Part shown: positions 7,231 through 17,833 of the stretch, one piece after another
Position numbering within the stretch: the stretch's first letter is position 1
How the letters are laid out: the number at the start of each line of letters is the position of its first letter
Assembly: GCA_020628095.1 (NCBI GenBank)
Contig: JAHDFP010000005.1
Location: 124,001-188,000 of the forward strand
Direction of reading: 5' to 3'
Origin: Saprospiraceae bacterium
GTDB lineage: Bacteria; Bacteroidota; Bacteroidia; Chitinophagales; Saprospiraceae
DNA: 64,000 nt
Position numbers and translations under genes: made by a program
Notes under the pieces: model-generated
What the model saw: only the letters and a program-made list of their open reading frames with translations
Database searches by the model: none
What the model was told of the DNA's origin: nothing

Positions 7231-7872
7231 TCAAAAAATCAACCTGCTGTAATACCCTTTATTAAAGAGATAACTAAACGTCCTATATACCCCAGATTCT
7301 GTTTCTTGGTTATTGATGTATTCCAAATAATGATTGTGCTTACTAGAGTTTTCTTTGGAGTTACTTATCGGAGATTTTAGAAAATTATTTAATCTGAAAT
7401 TGATTTGATTAATAAAATCCTCAAATCTAATCACCACCAAATTAGAGGGAACCACATTGTTATATAAGAGATAATCTTTGATCTTAAAGAAGGTCGGCGC
7501 TGTCGTCGCGAATGTCTCAAAATCTGAGGTTTTGGCTATCTCTGCTGCTTTGCCTTGATCCCATGGATTATTTTTCCTTAGATAAAAATATCTCGATACT
7601 AATAGATCGTAAGGATTACGTATGACCACAACGATGGCTTTGAAGGTTTCTATTCTGTGCGGTAATTCGTTTTGTATAAAAAACTCCTGAGCATCAGCCA
7701 GATTTTCATGCCGTTTACCAGCCAATATTGTTTCTTCTCCAATAGCATTATGATGTCCTTCGGGTACGGTGATGCGTATGTCTCCTTTCAGATTCTTCAG
7801 AAAATCTCCAGTTAGCTTCATACCACCTGTTTTGGGGACATGAAGAAAAAGCACCTCATCCGTAAATATCAT
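7231..7872 (-). CDS. Sulfotransferase-family protein
   Basis: This 213-residue protein opens with LFLHVPKTGGMK, in which PKTGG (13-17) corresponds to the 5'-phosphosulfate-binding loop of PAPS-dependent sulfotransferases. Residues 85-95 (RNPYDLLVSRY) give the 3'-phosphate-binding Arg and Ser. The length fits the carbohydrate sulfotransferase (Sulfotransfer_2-like) group. It has its own TAnnTTTG box just upstream, although it lies only 45 bases after the large fusion gene on the same strand. It probably sulfates the polysaccharide made by this locus. Confidence 0.75.
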   Translation of the reverse strand: MIFTDEVLFLHVPKTGGMKLTGDFLKNLKGDIRITVPEGHHNAIGEETILAGKRHENLADAQEFFIQNELPHRIETFKAIVVVIRNPYDLLVSRYFYLRKNNPWDQGKAAEIAKTSDFETFATTAPTFFKIKDYLLYNNVVPSNLVVIRFEDFINQINFRLNNFLKSPISNSKENSSKHNHYLEYINNQETESGVYRTFSYLFNKGYYSRLIF

Positions 7873-7917: not shown

Positions 7918-10900
7918 TTATGATATGGCTGTGGTCTTATTCAACCTTTTGATTTCTTTGGATATATGACCGAGATTCTTTTTGTGCTTCTTGAGAAATT
8001 TCTCAAAATTAACCTTCTGGTACCTTTTGAATCCTGTGTTTTCGTCCGTCCCAGAGGTGCCTCCTTCGTCATGATATATGATGCTCTCAGGAGTTACGAC
8101 AGTCTGTATATCATTCTCCCATGCTGTATAGCATAGGTCACTATCCTCACAATAACAAGGATGGAATTGCTCATCAAAAGTCCCAATCTTATCTATCGTC
8201 GCACGCTTGATGAACATGCTGCAACCAGAGACGTATCCTACGCGCTGTGCAATATTATATTCTCGCTTATCGGGATCATCCCACTTACCTATATTACGTC
8301 CTGTGCCGTCTTCATATAGCTCAGACCCGAACTCCTGTAGTGTTCCATCTGGGTACAATATTTTAGATCCTACGATACCGATGTCTGGATCAGAGTAAGC
8401 CACCTTGTAAAGATTTGTTAACCAATCTTTTTTCACATAGGTATCATTATTGAGCAAAACCACATCATTGAGTGGGTACATATCCATCATCGCATTGTTA
8501 GGCTTGACGAATACATCATTAGTCTCGGATAGGATAGGGATGATACGTGGGTTAATTTCTTTAGCTGAGTTAAGGTATTGCTTCGTTCCATCTTCGCAGC
8601 CGTTAGAGTGTACGACGATTTTATAATAAGGGTAAGTTGTGTTTTGCTCTACAGATTCTATGCAGCGCTGGAGTAGTTCTAAGCGATTCCATGTAACAAT
8701 GCAGATGGTAATCTCAGGATGAATACTCCTGAGCATATTGGTTTTAGCTTTTTCGGCACCGACTATAGATAGAAGTTTTTTCTGTGCTCTGGAGGTGATG
8801 TCATCCAGATCATATTTGTCAGAAAATACATCCACAATGTGCTTCGCCATCGCATCGTAATCCTCAGTAACAAAGCCTTCTTCGCCACTCACCAGATTAA
8901 TCCCTTCATTACCTATGGCATTGGTCACCACGGGTACTTTGTATGCGATTGCTTCGCATATCTTACCCTTAATACCAGCGCCAGCCAGAAGAGGTACTGC
9001 ACAGACGCCAGTGCTCTCATAGAGCTGGTCGATATCTGACTCTTCTATAAATCCCTTGTAAACAACACCGTCCTTTTTGCTAAGAGCCACGACATCATCA
9101 AGTGCATTGGAGCCAGCTATGATTAGCTGAGCATCAGGTATTTCTTTTCTGACTAGAGGAAGAATTTTTTCTGCGCAGACCTTTACAGCGGATATATTAG
9201 GATAATGGTTATAGCCACCAAAAAATAAGATATTATGACCTCTCTTTTCTGATAATACTGTCTTTTCTATATCATGAATGTTGGATACGACTTCGACTCT
9301 TTTTTCTGGTAACTCTTGGTGCAAATAATGCTTATCATTTTCTGTGACAGCCCAGATGACATCCGCCTTTTGATAGGCTTCTATTTCTAGTTTTTTGTTT
9401 TGTGCTACTTTTTCTTTAGTCAGAGACTTAGTCAATCCGATAGAACGTTCCTCTCTTACCCAATGCACATCCACCGTATCCATTATAATTCTTGCCTCTG
9501 GATAAAGCTGCAAAAATCTATCGCAATCAAAAATGGTATAAAACCATGCGAAGATAATGGCATCAAAATGAGCCACACTTTCTTTGACCTGCTCAAAGTC
9601 CTTCGTGTCAAATACATTGACATTAAGCTCATTTAGTTTAGCCACATGAGAAGCCGGCTTGTTACCCAAGGTAAAAGCATACACGTTACAATCTTCTGCA
9701 AGGAGACCGAGCATGCGCGTCGCTCTCTTTCCACCACTTGATTGGTCGTAGTCAGGGAGATGCGGAGAAATGAAAAGAACATTTTTCCTTTGGTTGTCTG
9801 CTTTGATTACGTTATAAAGCCCATGTATATCTGAGTCTTCTTTGTTGTCAGAAACAAGTTTTTTGAAGTTATTGGCGATATTCTTTGGGTTCTCATTTCC
9901 GAGTGCGGATTTGAGTTTTTTGACATTATCGGGAGAGAAATTCTTTATTGATCTTATGGGATGCCTGAGGAATAATAAGCCCATAGATATGAATAGCCAA
10001 AACTTAGAATGTCGTAATGGAAGATCACCTGCAAAAAGATCATAAACGAATCTAATAGGCCAGGTTAACACTCTACCTAATCTATAACTTAGAGACGATT
10101 TTATATTGGCTTTATCTCCTTCTACAGCCATCATGTGATCATAGATCTTTTGCTTATCAGAGACAAGATTTTCGTTTTGTTGGCCTATCTGTTTGATGCG
10201 GTTGTTTAGTTCTTCATTTTTGTTGTCAAGAGACTTGAGGTGTCCGCTTAGTTCTGTCAACGATACTTTTGATTCGGATAGATTTCTCTCTACTTGACCT
10301 TTGACGGCATGAAGGTTACTTATTTCTTGGGTAAGATTGTCTTTGCTTTGCTCTAGATATTTATTTGCCGTTTCTAATTCAGTAACTCTATTCGCTTTTT
10401 GATTGATTAGGTCTTGCGCTTTTAACTGCTCTTCTCTAGCAAGATTTTTTTCTTTTAATATCTCAGATTCTAATCCACTTATTAATTGATCAATTTTACC
10501 AGACACCATCGGAAGAAAATCAATAGCATATCTCCCAATTGATATAAACTGCAATCTAAATCCCAAAGATTCTACAGGTCCTATACGATCTTGGTACAAG
10601 TGGAGATAAGAGTTTTCGTTTGCAACACAGTACTTTTCATAATTAAGCAACGTACTATTAATTGTAGCAGAAGGTGTTATATCCCTATCCCCACTCATGA
10701 CGGATATCAAAGAAAAAATAGAATGATCACTACATGGTAAAAAAGTAAGGCTCGTAAACTTGTCTATACCACTTAGATCAAAGTCTAACACATTGACTCC
10801 ATACTTTACACTTTTGACTAAAGAATCAATTACTTGATCTCCATTGTATACAAGCAATCTGCATTGATAGGCAGTGGATTTTTGCTCTTTATTTTCTTGT

Positions 10901-11718
10901 GTTGTCAGCAAATCATTCACTTCAGCCAAAAGTTGAGCTTTCTTATTGTTTTCAGATTTCAAGTTATTAGTAAGCAAGGTATGGATAGCTTGCGTTAGTC
11001 TTTTGATCTCAGGCTTGACTTCATTTTGCTCGTTTGCTACTAACTTGGAGATTTGCTTTTTATTCAGGAAGGTGTCGATTTCGTCCTTTCGTGTTAGCTC
11101 AGGATTGAGACCAATTTCTTGTAGCACACTTATAAGTCTTTCACTTTTTCCCTCTAATAGCTCTTGGAATGATATTACACTAGATTGGTCATTCTTATCT
11201 ATCTGACTGATAAGACCATGATAATAATTAAGCCATATCAGATTAGATTTTTCTGAGCTAAACTTGTTTCTTTTATGGAGTGATTGTATGACGTGGACAG
11301 GGTCTCTATGTATGATTATTGACTTCAGATCGTAATGATCTTTTAGGATAAGCTTCCATATTGGAAGAAGGAGGCTTATTCTAGGGTCTTTGATACATAA
11401 GTCATTACTTGCGTCAAATTCTGCCTCTATTAACCTTAGCAACTCTTCTTTTTCTTCGTTAAGCTCCAGCAGACTTTCCCAGTGACTTGGTAGGGGATGA
11501 GTCGATTGCCAGTTCATAGATAACTTGGCCAATAATTTATCATTATAGGCAACGACCTTCTGGTTCTCAAAAAAACCAGTCGGATTATCTATAGATTGCT
11601 TTAATATACTCTGACCAATATCATAACCCATCTTATGCAGCGCACCAGCCAATGCAGATGTGCCTGATCGATGCATGCCTAGGATAAGGATGATATTTTG
11701 TTTCTTTTGATTGCTCAA
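7918..11718 (-). CDS. Sulfotransferase / coiled coil / GT4 / GT2 fusion protein
   Basis: This is a 1266-residue multidomain protein. Residues about 8-230 form a PAPS-dependent sulfotransferase with 5' loop GMHRSGTS (14-21) and 3' motif HRDPVHVIQS (Arg137, Ser145). A variable region follows, then a coiled coil at about 412-540 rich in Leu, Glu, Lys and Gln. A GT4-type domain runs from about 645 to 990 (SSGGKRATRMLGLL; donor-site pattern GAGIKGKICEA). A GT2 domain at about 1000-1260 begins ITICIVTWNRLELL with NNDT as its DxD region. The start is TTG at 11718. The gene follows the ABC exporter gene after 14 bases, so this looks like a polymer-building and sulfating enzyme working beside the exporter. 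Confidence 0.85.
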   Translation of the reverse strand: MSNQKKQNIILILGMHRSGTSALAGALHKMGYDIGQSILKQSIDNPTGFFENQKVVAYNDKLLAKLSMNWQSTHPLPSHWESLLELNEEKEELLRLIEAEFDASNDLCIKDPRISLLLPIWKLILKDHYDLKSIIIHRDPVHVIQSLHKRNKFSSEKSNLIWLNYYHGLISQIDKNDQSSVISFQELLEGKSERLISVLQEIGLNPELTRKDEIDTFLNKKQISKLVANEQNEVKPEIKRLTQAIHTLLTNNLKSENNKKAQLLAEVNDLLTTQENKEQKSTAYQCRLLVYNGDQVIDSLVKSVKYGVNVLDFDLSGIDKFTSLTFLPCSDHSIFSLISVMSGDRDITPSATINSTLLNYEKYCVANENSYLHLYQDRIGPVESLGFRLQFISIGRYAIDFLPMVSGKIDQLISGLESEILKEKNLAREEQLKAQDLINQKANRVTELETANKYLEQSKDNLTQEISNLHAVKGQVERNLSESKVSLTELSGHLKSLDNKNEELNNRIKQIGQQNENLVSDKQKIYDHMMAVEGDKANIKSSLSYRLGRVLTWPIRFVYDLFAGDLPLRHSKFWLFISMGLLFLRHPIRSIKNFSPDNVKKLKSALGNENPKNIANNFKKLVSDNKEDSDIHGLYNVIKADNQRKNVLFISPHLPDYDQSSGGKRATRMLGLLAEDCNVYAFTLGNKPASHVAKLNELNVNVFDTKDFEQVKESVAHFDAIIFAWFYTIFDCDRFLQLYPEARIIMDTVDVHWVREERSIGLTKSLTKEKVAQNKKLEIEAYQKADVIWAVTENDKHYLHQELPEKRVEVVSNIHDIEKTVLSEKRGHNILFFGGYNHYPNISAVKVCAEKILPLVRKEIPDAQLIIAGSNALDDVVALSKKDGVVYKGFIEESDIDQLYESTGVCAVPLLAGAGIKGKICEAIAYKVPVVTNAIGNEGINLVSGEEGFVTEDYDAMAKHIVDVFSDKYDLDDITSRAQKKLLSIVGAEKAKTNMLRSIHPEITICIVTWNRLELLQRCIESVEQNTTYPYYKIVVHSNGCEDGTKQYLNSAKEINPRIIPILSETNDVFVKPNNAMMDMYPLNDVVLLNNDTYVKKDWLTNLYKVAYSDPDIGIVGSKILYPDGTLQEFGSELYEDGTGRNIGKWDDPDKREYNIAQRVGYVSGCSMFIKRATIDKIGTFDEQFHPCYCEDSDLCYTAWENDIQTVVTPESIIYHDEGGTSGTDENTGFKRYQKVNFEKFLKKHKKNLGHISKEIKRLNKTTAIS

Positions 11719-11732
11719 GCTATAATCTTGGG

Positions 11733-12470
11733 TCAGTTGTATGTTTTATAGATAGGAACAACCTCATCCGGATGTCCCTGTGTTATAGTTTTTCCCTTAT
11801 GGAGCATAATTACACGACTTGAGTATTTCTTTATGTCTTGTAGATTATGTGAGACGTGAATGATGGTTTTATTATTCTGAATCATTTTCTTGAACAATTC
11901 GTCTGATTTTTTCCTAAAAGACAAATCACCTACACCACCAAAAAACTCGTCAAACAAATAAATATCAGCCTCTGCATTCATGGCAATAGAGAAAGCCAAG
12001 CGGCTTCTCATGCCATTAGAGTAAAATTTGATTGGTGTATCGACAAAGTCCCGTAATTCTGCGAAATTAATTATCTCATCAAACAATTGCCCAATCCGCC
12101 TAAAGCTAAGACCTAATATGGCTCCGTTGACATAGATGTTATCTCTCGCTGATAGATTCTTGTCAAAACCCATGCCGAGAGCTAATCTGACGATTTTACC
12201 ATTAGTAATGACCTTAGATCCTTTGTCCGCTTTGATAGCACCTATGATTATCTTGAGTAGGGTAGATTTGCCGCTGCCATTCTTACCTATAATACCTAAA
12301 AACTCCCCTTTTTCTATCTGAATGTTGATATCACTAAGTGCAGCAACCTTGGATCTCTTTCTGGGGTTGAATATCTGTAAGAACTTCTCACCCATCGTCA
12401 CACTCTTGGTCAGAGGGTAGAAAGTCTTATTAAGATTTTCTATGATGACGCTATGTTTATCTGACATCAT
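11733..12470 (-). CDS. Polysaccharide ABC exporter, ATP-binding subunit (Wzt/TagH/KpsT type)
   Basis: This 245-residue ATPase has Walker A GKNGSGKST (62-70), a signature of the polysaccharide-export subtype (YSNGMRSRLAFS) and Walker B IYLFDEFF with an Asp-Glu pair. It stops right after the nucleotide-binding domain and lacks the C-terminal carbohydrate-recognition domain of O-antigen Wzt proteins, so export probably does not depend on recognition of a capped chain end by this subunit. Its ATG overlaps the stop of the permease gene (ATGA), which shows translational coupling with its partner. Confidence 0.9.
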   Translation of the reverse strand: MMSDKHSVIIENLNKTFYPLTKSVTMGEKFLQIFNPRKRSKVAALSDINIQIEKGEFLGIIGKNGSGKSTLLKIIIGAIKADKGSKVITNGKIVRLALGMGFDKNLSARDNIYVNGAILGLSFRRIGQLFDEIINFAELRDFVDTPIKFYSNGMRSRLAFSIAMNAEADIYLFDEFFGGVGDLSFRKKSDELFKKMIQNNKTIIHVSHNLQDIKKYSSRVIMLHKGKTITQGHPDEVVPIYKTYN

Positions 12471-13267
12471 TGTTTTTCTATAGATAAATGAGCGTAACGA
12501 TTAAACAAGAATATAGAGATAAGGAAAACGATTATACCAAAGGCCAAGTTTTCTAATAACAAATGGAAGTACAATTCGTTTCCTTCTAGTAGGCAGGCTC
12601 TGACATTTTGTATCATACCTATAAAAGGATTGACATGCAAAAACCAACCGAAGCCATTATCTATATAGTTAGTAATGGTGAAAAATATACCCGATACCCA
12701 AAAACCTATCATCAGCAGTAGACTCCAAAAGTGCATGACATCCTCTATAATCGGCCTTAGTATTCCAATGATTATAGAAAATGCAGCCGTCACTAAAAAC
12801 CAAGTCAGTAAAACCACTGGAAAATATAATATATAGTCTCCCAAACCCGCTCCTGATATTATCATAAGGAACAGGTAAGCTGCTATATTAAACAGTAGTC
12901 CCATAAACACAGATAACATGTGACTTATATATAGGTCCAGCCATTGGAACTGGATATTCTCTATCAAGTATTTCTTTTGTATCAATACAAGTGACCCCAG
13001 CGTCGTGCCCTGAGAAAATGCTATCCAAAAGATTAAACCTGAAAATAGAAATAGGGCAAAATTCTCTTGCTGATTGGGTAAAAGAAGGTTAAAAACAAAA
13101 TAGTAGATGGCTATCTGGGTCAGGGGATTAATTAGAGCCCATAATAGGCCCAGTTTATTATTATAATACCTTTTCTTGAAATCGACCTGTGCTAACTTCC
13201 ATATCCGCTCCAATCGGTTATTCTCTGGAAAAAGTGATATGATGGGCTTTAATAAAGAGTTTAGCAA
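12467..13267 (-). CDS. Polysaccharide ABC exporter, permease subunit (ABC-2, Wzm/TagG type)
   Basis: This is a 266-residue membrane protein with about six transmembrane segments. It has the N-terminal amphipathic region (WKLAQVDFKKRYYNNKLGLLWALINP) typical of ABC-2 glycan and lipopolysaccharide exporters. It should form the channel with the ATPase encoded by the overlapping downstream gene and flip a lipid-linked glycan across the inner membrane. The start is TTG at 13267, with a stop five codons upstream, so only TTG or the adjacent ATT can initiate. It lies 23 bases after a GT2 gene. Confidence 0.88.
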   Translation of the reverse strand: MLNSLLKPIISLFPENNRLERIWKLAQVDFKKRYYNNKLGLLWALINPLTQIAIYYFVFNLLLPNQQENFALFLFSGLIFWIAFSQGTTLGSLVLIQKKYLIENIQFQWLDLYISHMLSVFMGLLFNIAAYLFLMIISGAGLGDYILYFPVVLLTWFLVTAAFSIIIGILRPIIEDVMHFWSLLLMIGFWVSGIFFTITNYIDNGFGWFLHVNPFIGMIQNVRACLLEGNELYFHLLLENLAFGIIVFLISIFLFNRYAHLSIEKQ

Positions 13268-13290: not shown

Positions 13291-14271
13291 TTATCCCTTT
13301 TTTACCAAGTCAAAGTAACCAAATTCTTTGCTTGGAATAGCGCGCAAAGATAGCTTATTCCTGTCAAGATGTTCGTTAAGGGCACGCATTGCAGTATCAT
13401 TGACATGAGACTTATTGAGAGGGCTATAACTGATACTCTGAGGGGACTTTCGCCAGTGATAACATATCTCAGGAATATGATATATGTGATCTACAGAATC
13501 CAAAGCATCCATAATACGCAATATCAGGTCATAGTCCTGCGCTCCTGAGAACTCTGGTCGGTACCAGCCCACCTTATCTCCTATAATTCTGTTGATGACC
13601 AGATAATGATTGACACAATTAGATCTTCTGATATTTTCGAGTGTAAAAGCAGGTTTATGATTAGGTTGAGTTCTTTGGCCCTCTTCGTTTAGTATATCCT
13701 CGTCACTATAAAGTATGTCCTTTTTACCAACTTTATTCAAGGTCTTAACTAGATGATATAGAGCCAAGACATGTAATCTATCATCATGATCTAAAAAGGA
13801 AATATATTCCCCACTACTTTTGTCGATGGCTATATTAAGAGTCTCGGCGATACCCTTATTACTTTGATTTTTATGGAATAGAATACGAGGGTCGTTATAG
13901 GATTCTATCTGCTTTTGGATGTTTTCTATTCCTGCTGAAGCATCATCAACGATGACTAATTCCCATTTTTGATATAGTTGTCCTCGCACGGAATCGATGG
14001 CTTCCTGCAAGAATCTGATGTCAGACTCATAGGTAGGCATGATAATGCTCACAGTGGGTTGATAGGCATATTTGCTTAGTTCAGATTTTATCAAATTAAT
14101 TTGTGAATCAGATAGCTTTTGGGCTTCTATTTCTTGCTGATATAGTCTATTTTCTTTCGACCGCCTCAGTACAGTTTTTATTTTCCTGAGTGTTACAGAA
14201 AAGGATTCATTTTTGAGAGAATGAAGTAGAACCTTGAGGTTGTTTATATTTATAATCCTTTTGATACTAAT
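13291..14271 (-). CDS. Glycosyltransferase family 2 with no canonical start for its N-terminal region
   Basis: The GT-A domain is clear: PTVSIIMPTYESD near the start, FLDHDDRLHV as the DxD region and ending with QDYDLILRIM. A TTG at 14094 gives 267 residues, but the frame stays open another 59 codons to a TAG at 14274-14272. That extra stretch (for example KTVLRRSKENRLYQQEIEAQ) resembles the basic helical lead-in usual for this GT2 subgroup. It contains no ATG, GTG or TTG; CTG at 14169 or ATT at 14271 are the candidates. The function, sugar transfer for the neighbouring exporter, is inferred from family and position. The start is uncertain. Confidence 0.75.
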   Translation of the reverse strand: MSIKRIININNLKVLLHSLKNESFSVTLRKIKTVLRRSKENRLYQQEIEAQKLSDSQINLIKSELSKYAYQPTVSIIMPTYESDIRFLQEAIDSVRGQLYQKWELVIVDDASAGIENIQKQIESYNDPRILFHKNQSNKGIAETLNIAIDKSSGEYISFLDHDDRLHVLALYHLVKTLNKVGKKDILYSDEDILNEEGQRTQPNHKPAFTLENIRRSNCVNHYLVINRIIGDKVGWYRPEFSGAQDYDLILRIMDALDSVDHIYHIPEICYHWRKSPQSISYSPLNKSHVNDTAMRALNEHLDRNKLSLRAIPSKEFGYFDLVKKG

Positions 14272-14294: not shown

Positions 14295-15110
14295 ATGTCA
14301 AAAACTCCTGTGATCTCTATTGTATTACCGACCTATAATAGAATAGACTCCTTGCGAGTAGCCATAGATTCGGTGCTCCATCAAAGTTATGAAGATTTCC
14401 AATTAATCGTGGTCAACGATGCCTCATCTGACGGCACAAGGGCTTTCTTGGACTCGGATATAAAGGACAAGAGGGTAGTCCTAATCCATAATCCTCAAAA
14501 CCTCGGACTGCAAAAATCACTTAATAAGGGCTTAGAAGCTGCCTCTGGGGAATTTATCGCCAGAATAGATGATGATGACAGATGGATAGATAGTGATAAG
14601 CTCAAGAAGCAATTAGACTATATGCGGCAGAATACAGACTGCATATTATTAGGTACGGCTTATCAAGACGAAAGTGGTCAAGTAACTCATAATCCATTGA
14701 GTGACGGAGAACTGAGGAAACAGATGTTGTTCAGATGTCCTTTTAGGCATAGTAGTATCTTGTTTCGTGCAAGTGGAGAGGAATGGCGATATGATGAGCA
14801 ATTAAAGTATTCAGAAGATTGGGAGTTATGGCTACGGATGGGACAGAAGGGATCATTAGCCAACCTAGATGATGTTACTGTAGAAATCGCTACTGAAAAT
14901 AACGCCACTCAAAAATTCTTCACCAAACAGATTCCTATAAATATAGAACTCATCAAAAAGCATAGATCTAATTATCCCAATAGTGCTAAAGCCTTATTGT
15001 ATCACAAGTTTTTACTTCTTTTCTTTAAAGTTGTTCCCTTGGATGGAATTATACATCGGTTTTTCCAAAAGGTGTTTTCTTTGGTGTTTTTAAAAAGTAA
15101 ATCAAGTTGA
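14295..15110 (+). CDS. Glycosyltransferase family 2
   Basis: This is a 271-residue GT-A enzyme starting MSKTPVISIVLPTYNR, with NDASSDGT in the nucleotide-binding region and RIDDDDRW as the metal-binding acidic motif, followed by YSEDWELWLRMG typical of family 2. I place the start at the ATG at 14295 rather than the upstream TTG at 14277, because the family fold begins only a few residues later. It diverges from the minus-strand glycosyltransferase operon and overlaps the next gene by four bases, so it is cotranscribed with the sulfotransferase-like gene. Confidence 0.85.
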   Translation: MSKTPVISIVLPTYNRIDSLRVAIDSVLHQSYEDFQLIVVNDASSDGTRAFLDSDIKDKRVVLIHNPQNLGLQKSLNKGLEAASGEFIARIDDDDRWIDSDKLKKQLDYMRQNTDCILLGTAYQDESGQVTHNPLSDGELRKQMLFRCPFRHSSILFRASGEEWRYDEQLKYSEDWELWLRMGQKGSLANLDDVTVEIATENNATQKFFTKQIPINIELIKKHRSNYPNSAKALLYHKFLLLFFKVVPLDGIIHRFFQKVFSLVFLKSKSS

Positions 15111-15796
15111 TAGGGAAGAATTTCGCCTTCTTAATGGGAATCCTCTTAGGAGAGTCCAAACTGTTGTTTTGGATTAACTATCACAGAGCTATTGTCAAGG
15201 ATAAATTAATCTCAGATAAGACGGATATATGCATAGAGGGATTCCAACGGTCAGGTAATAATTTCTTTTATTCATTTTTCAAAAGACATAATAGGCCGAA
15301 GGATGTATCGCACCATACCCATTATGCACAGAACGTCATTAAGGCTATTAACCAAAAGCTACCTACTGTAGTGCTTATACGTCATCCTTTGGATGCTCTG
15401 GCGAGTCTTATTACCTATGATGATCGCCTGTCACTCCGTGTCGCGACTTTAGCCTATCTCAGATATTACAGGAAATTAATTCCGTTCCTGGATAAGTTGT
15501 TGCTTGTTGATTTCACAGATGTCATCTCTGAGCCTGATAGGGTTATTGAGCGCATCAATGACCGCTTTGGGACCAACTATAAACAATCTGGTTTTACAGA
15601 TGAAGAAATCCAACAATTCCTAAATCAGAAAAAAGAACGCAATAAATCCTTAGGTGATAAGTCTCCTTACCCTAACGCAGAGAAGAATAGAACTAACAAA
15701 AAAAACAAAGCTCTAATAGAGAAACACCAGGGTTATAAAAAATGTCTGAAGCTGTATCAGCAATACCAAGAGTTAATAAGGAATCAGACCACTTGA
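15107..15796 (+). CDS. Sulfotransferase-like protein
   Basis: This 229-residue protein contains a P-loop-like segment [20 protein letters not shown], which matches the 5'-phosphosulfate loop position of sulfotransferases. [19 protein letters not shown] resembles the 3'-phosphate motif with Arg and Ser. The family is divergent, so the assignment is moderate. The start is TTG at 15107, overlapping the preceding stop as TTGA; an alternative ATG lies at 15134. The 3' end overlaps the convergent fcl gene by 13 bases. It would be the third sulfotransferase-type gene of the locus. Confidence 0.6.
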
Positions 15797-16716
15797 CTTA
15801 GGAATTTTTCTTTATAGACTTCTTTGATCCCATCAGTCAGACTTATGCTTGGTTTCCAACCCATCTTGGTCAATCTTTGACTATCCATAAGCTTGCGGGG
15901 TGTTCCGTTAGGATAACTTGTGTCAAAGGTTATTCGCCCCTTATATCCAACGATTTCTTTGATGAGTCGAGCAAGATCGCCGATCGATATTTCTTCGTTA
16001 GAGCCTATGTTAAGGTGAGTTGGTTCATTATAAGATTTCATAGCGAATAGGCAGGCATCCGCCAGATCATCTACGTGCATAAATTCTCTGAGTGGTGATC
16101 CATCTCCCCATACAATGACCTCTTCTGCCTCTGTTATCATGGCCTCATGAAACTTTCGTATCAATGCCGGCAAGACATGGGAAGTCTTCAGGTCATAGTT
16201 ATCATTAGGACCATATAGATTAGTCGGCATGACGGAAATGAAATTAGATCCATATTGAGCTCTGTAGGCATTGCACATTTCTATGCCTGCGATCTTAGCG
16301 ATGGCATAGGGCTGATTAGTAGGTTCTAATTTTCCAGATAGCAAAGAATCTTCACGTATGGGTTGCTCTGCAAATTTGGGATAGATACATGATGACCCTA
16401 AGAACTGTAGCTTTTTTACGCCAGACTCATAAGCAGAATGGATAACATTACTCTGTATCATCAGGTTCTTATAGATGAACTCTCCTCTATAGGCATTATT
16501 TGCGTGTATGCCACCCACTTTGGCGGCAGCGAGAAAGACATAGTCAGGTTTTTCTTGCTGAAAAAAGCCTGAAACACTTTCTTGTTGGGTCAGGTCCAGT
16601 TCACTCGATGTACGTGTTATGATGTGATCGTATCCTTCGGATTTTAGTTTTCTACAGATGGCAGAGCCCACCATACCTCTATGACCAGCCACATATATCT
16701 TTGAGTCTTTTTGCAT
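15784..16716 (-). CDS. fcl: GDP-L-fucose synthase
   Basis: This 310-residue extended SDR converts GDP-4-keto-6-deoxymannose to GDP-L-fucose by epimerisation and NADPH reduction. Residues 11-17 (GHRGMVG) bind NADPH. The catalytic pair Tyr137/Lys141 (YAIAK) and the GSSCIYPK segment with Ser and Cys110 are present, as in characterised GDP-fucose synthases. It follows gmd by one base on the same strand, completing the two-step pathway. Together they supply L-fucose for the glycan. Confidence 0.95.
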
Positions 16717-16717
16717 T

Positions 16718-17833
16718 TTATTCCCATTCGTTGAGCGTGAGATAACCTGATTTTCTTAGTATGGAATGTTTCTTAAAGTATTCCATATCTGAGTCCACCA
16801 TCTCTGATACTAATGCAGCAAAGTCATACTTATGTGACCATCCTAGTTCATTTATTGCTTTGCTAGCATCACCTACAAGTAGATCTACCTCTGTCGGTCG
16901 GTAATATTGTGGGTCTACTTTTATAAGGGTTTTATTATTAAGATGAGCATACTCTGGTACGGTAGTCATCGCAATACCTACTTCGTCTTTGCCCTTTCCC
17001 TCAAAACGAATATCTATTCCAATATGTTTAAAAGCCGTAGTGGCAAATTCTCTGACAGAATACTTCTTACCCGTCGCCAGAACAAAGTCGTCTGGAATCT
17101 CATGCTGCAATATCAGCCACATACCATAGACATAATCCTTAGCGTGCCCCCAATCTCTCTCAGCATCCATGTTACCAAGATATAGACAGTCATCTATGCC
17201 ATAGGCTATTTTTGCTACCGCACGGGTAATTTTTCTAGTTACAAATGTTTCTCCTCTCAATGGACTTTCGTGATTAAAAAGAATACCGTTGCTACCGAAT
17301 ATATTATAGGCCTCTCTATAGTTCTTGGTTATCCAGTAGGCGAATAATTTAGACACGCCGTAGGGTGAGCGCGGGTAGAAAGGTGTTGTTTCTGTCTGAG
17401 GAATCTCTTGGACCTTACCATATAGCTCTGACGTAGATGCCTGATAAAATTTAGTCTTTTTCTCTAAGCCTAATAACCTTATAGCCTCCAGTATCCTTAG
17501 AGTACCGACTGCATCCACATTGGCCGTATATTCTGGCGAGTCGAAGCTAACTTTGACATGTGATTGTGCACCTAGATTATAGATCTCATCAGGCTGTGTA
17601 TCCTGTATAATTCTTATAATGTTAGTCGAATCCGTCAAGTCACCATAGTGTAGTATGAAATTTCTTTCCTTGACATGAGGATCTTGATATAGGTGATCTA
17701 TTCTTCGGGTATTGAATGAAGAGGACCTTCTTTTTATACCGTGTACTTCGTACCCCTTTTCGATAAGTAATTCTGCCAGATAAGCTCCATCTTGTCCTGT
17801 GATACCACTTATCAATGCGACCTTTCCTTCCAT
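16718..17833 (-). CDS. gmd: GDP-mannose 4,6-dehydratase
   Basis: This 371-residue extended SDR makes GDP-4-keto-6-deoxy-D-mannose. Residues 10-16 (GITGQDG) bind NADP, and the catalytic Thr134, Glu136, Tyr158 and Lys162 (TSELYG and YGVSK) are present, as is the long RR-containing loop near the N-terminus. Length and motifs are standard for Gmd. It is the first gene of a two-gene operon with fcl and is divergent from the membrane protein at 17923. Confidence 0.96.

Follow-up and report, generated by a model that had tools for sequence, protein, structure and literature searches.

The minus strand of a 64,000-nucleotide stretch of Saprospiraceae bacterium contig JAHDFP010000005.1 (the window, hereafter) carries an uninterrupted open reading frame (ORF) of 1266 amino acids with a TTG start (7918..11718), which joins a sulfotransferase, an all-beta domain, a coiled coil, a connector, and glycosyltransferase (GT) modules of families GT4 and GT2 in one polypeptide. 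We read this fusion, at a little under even confidence, as a terminator-coil-polymerase protein of ATP-binding cassette (ABC) transporter-dependent polysaccharide assembly, in which the sulfotransferase would be the terminator and sulfate capping would be gated by chain length. Its layout is that of a ruler protein, with a candidate terminator at one end of the coil and candidate polymerase GTs at the other, and a Wzm-Wzt ABC transporter is encoded in the same locus (11733-13267). A first-pass annotation of the window, made without database searches, had proposed the order sulfotransferase, coiled coil, GT4, GT2 directly after the ABC exporter gene. The order is confirmed by the uninterrupted ORF, Pfam, fold comparison, and coil statistics; the fusion ORF starts 14 bp 3' of wzt, as that annotation implied. 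The all-beta domain and the connector were absent from it.

The domain search proposed at that time gave clear results for both GTs. A GT4 (GT-B type) module spans residues 646-985 (8764..9783, minus strand, as for all parts of the fusion), with Glyco_trans_1_4 at residues 828-967 (E 3e-20), and a GT2 (GT-A type) module spans residues 1001-1250 (7969..8718), with Glycos_transf_2 at residues 1004-1171 (E 1e-13). For the sulfotransferase domain (residues 1-256; 10951..11718), Pfam families fell just under their cut-offs: Sulfotransfer_4 at residues 10-87 with E 1e-4 (22.5 bits, cut-off 22.8) and Sulfotransfer_3 at residues 10-174 with E 1e-3 (19.5 bits, cut-off 27). When a family profile was compared with PDB sequences, sulfotransferases made up 31 of 37 among the matches listed, with a best E of only 0.03; of the remaining six, four are SART3 and two are kinase-like or UPF0200 proteins. 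Comparison of the AlphaFold model with the PDB supports a sulfotransferase fold for the N-terminal domain, which rules out a non-sulfotransferase P-loop protein, the alternative that the first-pass annotation had raised. The GT99 module of WbbB proper, a terminator that adds beta-linked 3-deoxy-D-manno-octulosonic acid (Kdo), is likewise not what lies at this N terminus.

Sequence motifs agree with the fold. The RSGTS at residues 17-21 (11656..11670) belongs to what we take to be the 5'-phosphosulfate-binding loop, and R138 and S146 (11281..11307) are presumably the 3'-phosphate-binding pair. In an alignment of 14 sulfotransferase domains (loci L044 and L052 not among them), R17, S18, G19, and S21, the KDPR motif at residues 110-113 (11380..11391), R138, and S146 are all invariant. 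In an alternative alignment with L044 and L052 included, only S18, G19, N59, D111, P112, and R138 are. In the PDB-sequence profile comparison the loop and the Arg/Ser pair line up with KSGT and RNPxxxxxS in sulfotransferases of solved structure, with weak E-values. The same genome encodes an adenosine 5'-phosphosulfate (APS) kinase (E 3e-63), in keeping with a supply of the sulfate donor 3'-phosphoadenosine 5'-phosphosulfate (PAPS).

The coiled coil occupies about residues 408-547 (10078..10497), and its measured length of ~140 residues is close to the 130 estimated at first. It contains no Pro, and its power at period 3.5 gave z = 10.3, a value somewhat flattered by the loose heptad heuristic used to choose segments, and reached by none of 500 shuffles; elsewhere in the protein, four segments gave z of -0.6 to 0.4. 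Single-sequence AlphaFold placed helices at residues 384-481 and 487-563, with a predicted local distance difference test score of up to 83 for the block and with the N terminus and remainder poorly predicted. The coil, whose failure to be predicted would have removed the basis of the first-pass proposal, is thus supported by periodicity and by predicted helices, and the shuffle test rules out chance low complexity in the window protein. Of 13 coil segments put through this test, 11 had 0 of 500 shuffles as high, the others being L046 (16/500) and L050 (11/500).

Two further parts flank the coil. The all-beta domain of the AlphaFold model (residues 284-394; 10537..10869) has no annotation and resembles a carbohydrate-binding module (CBM) by position only. 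Pfam recognised nothing in the window protein's copy, and of 14 members only one gave a match, a weak one (E 0.011). Against PDB sequences one weak match was found (6ekt, E 0.062), the domain having been neither searched nor folded by itself, and comparison with the beta region of a Desulfolutivibrio protein described below gave no convincing match (probability 2.4%). After the coil, an amphipathic/hydrophobic connector (residues 541-620; 9859..10098) starts with SSLSYRLGRVLTWPIR and continues into a hydrophobic stretch, and presumably contacts the membrane.

The layout has published counterparts. In Klebsiella O12 WbbB and O7 ORF6, described in PMC11231755 as rulers or terminators, an N-terminal terminator is followed by a coil and C-terminal polymerase GTs; since both share the domain order, the analogy with coiled-coil rulers drawn at first pass holds and is closer than its author knew. 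WbbB (Klebsiella O12 / Raoultella terrigena) combines a terminator, a coil, and two polymerising GTs in one polypeptide of an ABC pathway (PMC11231755). However, its terminator is a beta-Kdo transferase (GT99) rather than a sulfotransferase, and the terminus-reading CBM on the transporter that is reported for the terminated examples (PMC11231755) is missing here. ORF6 consists of a terminator, an immunoglobulin-like CBM domain, a coil, and two GTs (PMC11231755), and the beta domain of the window protein stands in the same place as that CBM, a likeness of position only; in contrast to our protein, the ORF6 terminator is a methyltransferase-kinase and both of its GTs are GT2. WbdD, which works with WbdA in E. 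coli O9a / Klebsiella O3, also joins a terminator to a membrane coiled-coil ruler, but its chemistry is that of a kinase-methyltransferase and its polymerase is a separate protein. An ABC transporter without a CBM is known from the Klebsiella O1/O2 system, and in Klebsiella O2a chain length is set by the stoichiometry of transporter to biosynthesis complex (PMC11231755). The capsule cluster of Cobetia marina KMM 1449 resembles ours in having a sulfated polysaccharide, an ABC exporter, PAPS genes, and sulfotransferases together (PMC11766843); there the sulfate is in the repeat unit, and the word "coiled" is absent from the available text of that paper. Within one paper library and the terms searched, no sulfotransferase acting as a chain terminator was found in print. 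The layout is already known, and the sulfotransferase terminator and the CBM-less transporter set this protein apart as a variant.

By analogy, the GT4 and GT2 modules, held to the inner membrane by the amphipathic connector, would extend a lipid-linked chain. The coil would keep the sulfotransferase and beta domain at a distance from the GTs; it is probably oligomeric, a rod some 20 nm long if each of its 140 residues adds 0.15 nm. A chain that had grown far enough to meet the distal site would be sulfated at its non-reducing end with PAPS as donor, which would stop growth, and Wzm-Wzt would export the capped chain. Chain length would thus be set by coil length.

Relatives were found with a profile of the connector and GTs, which gave matches at E <= 1e-60, some only partial, in 21 of 398 genomes of the window's family; scans with the fusion protein alone returned no relative in genome_contigs or viral_contigs. 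The best 80 of 114 loci were listed and 20 (L042-L061) analysed, and nine more (L063-L068, L072, L077, L085) received translation and the loose coil heuristic only. Matching genome_contigs records L042-L058, L060, and L061 are labelled Saprospiraceae, Saprospirales, Chitinophagales, Lewinella, Flavilitoribacter, or Bacteroidetes, and L059 is a distant deltaproteobacterial relative. Most relatives are known solely from metagenome assemblies. Twelve proteins, including that of the window, are fused sulfotransferase-beta-GT4-GT2 proteins with a readable N terminus. L053 (interrupted in the GT2 region) and L061 (contig end) are among the twelve, since in both the frame is open from the N terminus as far as GT4. 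L042 was left out because its frame breaks inside the beta domain, upstream of the coil, and L046 because of a run of N; in both assemblies the sulfotransferase is a separate ORF. L055 starts inside the protein at a contig end, and L048, L049, L050 (two paralogues), L057, L059, and L060 are without a sulfotransferase. The survey of Bacteroidota suggested at first pass thus shows the fusion recurring in Saprospiraceae and their kin, and this recurrence in other genomes rules out an assembly chimera or accident as its source.

An extra C-terminal part follows GT2 in L034 (same genome region as L050), L049, L051, L052, and L060. The two L034 paralogues, the only ones scanned by Pfam, both have methyltransferase matches there.

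Natural variation in coil length was found among the relatives, in agreement with a ruler. With length taken as the longest stretch by the loose heptad heuristic, 8 of the 12 fused members have coils of ~140-447 residues: 140 in the window, 182 in L047, 209 in L061, 294 in L052, 311 in L051, 408 in L044, 423 in L045, and 447 in L043. A coil length that ranges from 0 to ~447 residues beside a conserved GT pair supports capping. L042 and L043 are identical at 481 of 606 GT residues (79%), and their coils, about 330 and 420 residues, are ~90 apart, in gaps of 60 and 30. In L051 and L052 the GTs are identical at 540 of 615 residues and the coil at only 135 of 263 (51%), yet the coils align gap-free, which is the pattern of a length-conserved spacer (compare the abstract of PMC5082667). 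The DNA coding for the L047 coil (L047:9546-9829) is a 21-bp tandem repeat with one heptad per unit, in two overlapping arrays of 8.9 and 7.0 copies; slippage in such an array could change coil length. L049 contains a 135-bp unit repeated 2.5 times, and no tandem repeat of the L047 kind was found in the window coil. Coil length is also reported to vary in putative methyltransferase genes of E. coli group 3 capsules (PMC13171606).

In a tree of the family, 16 rows including all coil-bearing proteins form one side of a fork whose support, 91/94, is just short of the starred level; none of the four coil-less fusions belongs to that side. With 11 of 19 inner branches open, the placements of L055, L056, L058, and L059 unsure, and the root at the midpoint, it is only suggested that the fused sulfotransferase predates the coil.

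The gene order on the minus strand of the window is GT2, wzm, wzt, fusion, and a stand-alone Sulfotransfer_2 gene. Pfam identifies the GT2 glycosyltransferase that opens the run (13291..14094), the Wzm-type ABC-2 permease (12467..13267), the Wzt-type ABC ATPase (11733..12470), and, directly downstream of the fusion, the separate sulfotransferase (7231..7872), in which Sulfotransfer_2 is above its cut-off. A sulfotransferase-like protein on the plus strand (15107..15796) matches Sulfotransfer_1/3 below cut-off and has close homologues in L054 and L056, two loci whose fusions lack a coil. A GDP-mannose 4,6-dehydratase (16718..17833) and an NAD-dependent epimerase that we read as a probable GDP-fucose synthase (15784..16716), both on the minus strand, likely supply GDP-fucose. 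The cluster contains further GT genes. Among the relatives, wzm and wzt homologues lie inside the fetched stretch in 8 of 20 loci (L043, L045, L046, L051, L052, L054, L057, L060), and 17 of 19 genomes searched carry a Wzm homologue somewhere, that of L044 being weak (E 9e-11).

Several observations weigh against length-gated capping, and many of them would suit decoration, in which the sulfotransferase would modify repeat units all along the chain as it grows, and the coil, as a tether or a scaffold for oligomerisation, would allow one enzyme to work on a long nascent polymer and would not stop growth. In addition to the two other sulfotransferase genes of the window, 13 of the 20 loci have a stand-alone gene with the motif IPK(C/S)(G/A)G(T/S)S(F/L)R, in most cases downstream of the fusion; all three of these proteins that were scanned are Sulfotransfer_2, and a different Sulfotransfer_2 gene occupies this position in the window. 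With such genes close by, sulfate may be a common decoration. The Wzt of the window, at 245 aa, had no Wzt_C match in Pfam at E up to 1, and the eight Wzt matches in relatives' loci are 253-268 aa as called (a comparison of length only). A C-terminal CBM on the transporter is reported for all examples of terminated O-polysaccharides in PMC11231755, which also describes the Klebsiella O1 terminal group, exported by a CBM-less transporter, as merely diversifying the glycan. Four of the 12 fused members (L053, L054, L056, L058) keep the sulfotransferase and GTs and have no coil, with a spacing from beta domain to GT4 of about 90-120 residues vs about 236 in the window, and coil-less L054 has wzm-wzt adjoining. 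Conversely, the near relatives L049, L050, and L060 have coil, GT4, and GT2 without a sulfotransferase. However, a covalent coil of hundreds of residues with repeat-driven length drift would be needless for a decorating enzyme, and in published proteins of the same order the distal enzyme is a terminator (PMC11231755). Because the fusion follows the same plan as those proteins, we favor capping and regard decoration as rather unlikely. Of the first-pass interpretation, the domain calls and the ruler analogy stand; as it proposed, the sulfotransferase may either cap or decorate the chain, given the CBM-less Wzt and the four coil-less members.

In the coil-less members a distance gate is unworkable as drawn, and a short unit may be sulfated instead. 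Another explanation is that GT4-GT2 is not the polymerase and builds a short repeat unit or adapter that is sulfated before polymerisation, with the coil only positioning the complex. The other GT genes of the window cluster fit such a role, as does coil-less relative G054 (probably the same locus as L058): two genes of the Wzy_C polymerase/ligase type are close to it, and its contig also carries a Wzm homologue at a distance of 34 kb. A simple split, with a coil accompanying ABC export and no coil accompanying Wzy export, was considered and dropped, since L054 is coil-less beside wzm-wzt and L058 has a Wzm homologue 34 kb off. The ABC-transporter pathway polymerises its chain in the cytoplasm (PMC11231755), and wzm-wzt was seen in 7 of 13 coil-bearing members (window, L043, L045, L046, L051, L052, L060), which makes the short-unit explanation improbable; in the other six (L042, L044, L047, L049, L050, L061) it is not within the stretch, L042 and L061 being cut by contig ends. 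A last alternative is an N-terminal domain that is no longer active as a sulfotransferase and serves for binding or docking. The L044 member (L044:7685-12244), which has a ~408-residue coil, carries a degenerate nucleotide-binding loop (IGLMSSGET in place of GMHRSGTS) and is possibly inactive judging by this change; L052 has KDPQ where others have KDPR; and the sulfotransferase domain evolves fast, with 53% identity vs 88% for the GTs between L051 and L052. Both of these altered loci also count against a capping enzyme. Nevertheless, neither the window protein nor any of the 14 aligned domains has lost the signature residues (L044 and L052 are not among the 14), and we consider a docking module very improbable.

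Sulfotransferases followed by long helices also occur outside this family. The sulfotransferase domain matched 47 plasmid records by tblastn, of which 14 were inspected. Proteins of this kind that lack GT domains occur on alphaproteobacterial plasmids. In 12 of the 14 records a Pro-free segment, 96 residues long or more, comes after the sulfotransferase. Heptad periodicity was matched by <= 5% of shuffles in seven of these 12 proteins and by more in the other five (H1, H12, H3, H2, H18), so coils there rest partly on composition. At E <= 0.01, Pfam gave no sulfotransferase match in 3 of 13 plasmid proteins (L164, L166, L167), although tblastn had found the domain. A motif resembling SSLSYRLGRVLTWPIR, S-W-(K/R)-(I/V/L)-T-x-P-(L/I/M)-R, lies near the C terminus in 8 of the 14. 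In five of the 14 records the next annotated gene is a glycosyltransferase of > 1100 codons, directly downstream in L156, L163, and L165 (Rhodobacterales plasmid pairs; L156:6956-12465, L163:3986-8666, L165:3962-8651) and adjacent on the other strand in L160 and L164. These pairs resemble a split form, as WbdD with WbdA. A 1196-aa sulfotransferase protein of Desulfolutivibrio sulfodismutans plasmid p1 (L158:6986-10576) has near-identical tandem units in its long helix, and an adenylyl-sulfate kinase (cysC) is the second gene downstream. In Aeromonas salmonicida, a stand-alone sulfotransferase-domain gene is reported beside WbbB, its role unexplained (PMC4483657).

Among 395 Bacteroidota genomes drawn (that of the window included), 11 had such a domain at E <= 1e-10, three of them in open frames of > 700 codons. 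Genome G437 encodes a 1005-aa sulfotransferase-GT2-GT2 protein with a short run of seemingly heptad-like repeats between, near a Wzt with a C-terminal Wzt_C domain, a CBM (L038:1501-7486). This locus is a candidate for a system in which the transporter may read the cap; the G437 bin has 520 contigs and is 82% complete, so the origin of that contig is not sure.

Taken more broadly, and more tentatively than for the window protein itself, sulfation could be a further termination chemistry beside methylation, phosphomethylation, and Kdo addition. Coil-mounted sulfotransferases, which in Saprospiraceae would be part of the polymerase polypeptide and in Alphaproteobacteria a separate protein, would cap surface polysaccharides at a length that changes in evolution as coil repeats are gained and lost, and the transporter would not read the cap. 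If so, sulfate would join the list of chain-terminating groups, and the family would offer a natural series of coils (none, about 140, 180, 210, 300, 410, 420, and 450 residues) on a conserved polymerase, making the ruler model testable across evolution, beyond engineered coils. In Saprospiraceae it would, in addition, indicate which genes make sulfated polymers of defined length.

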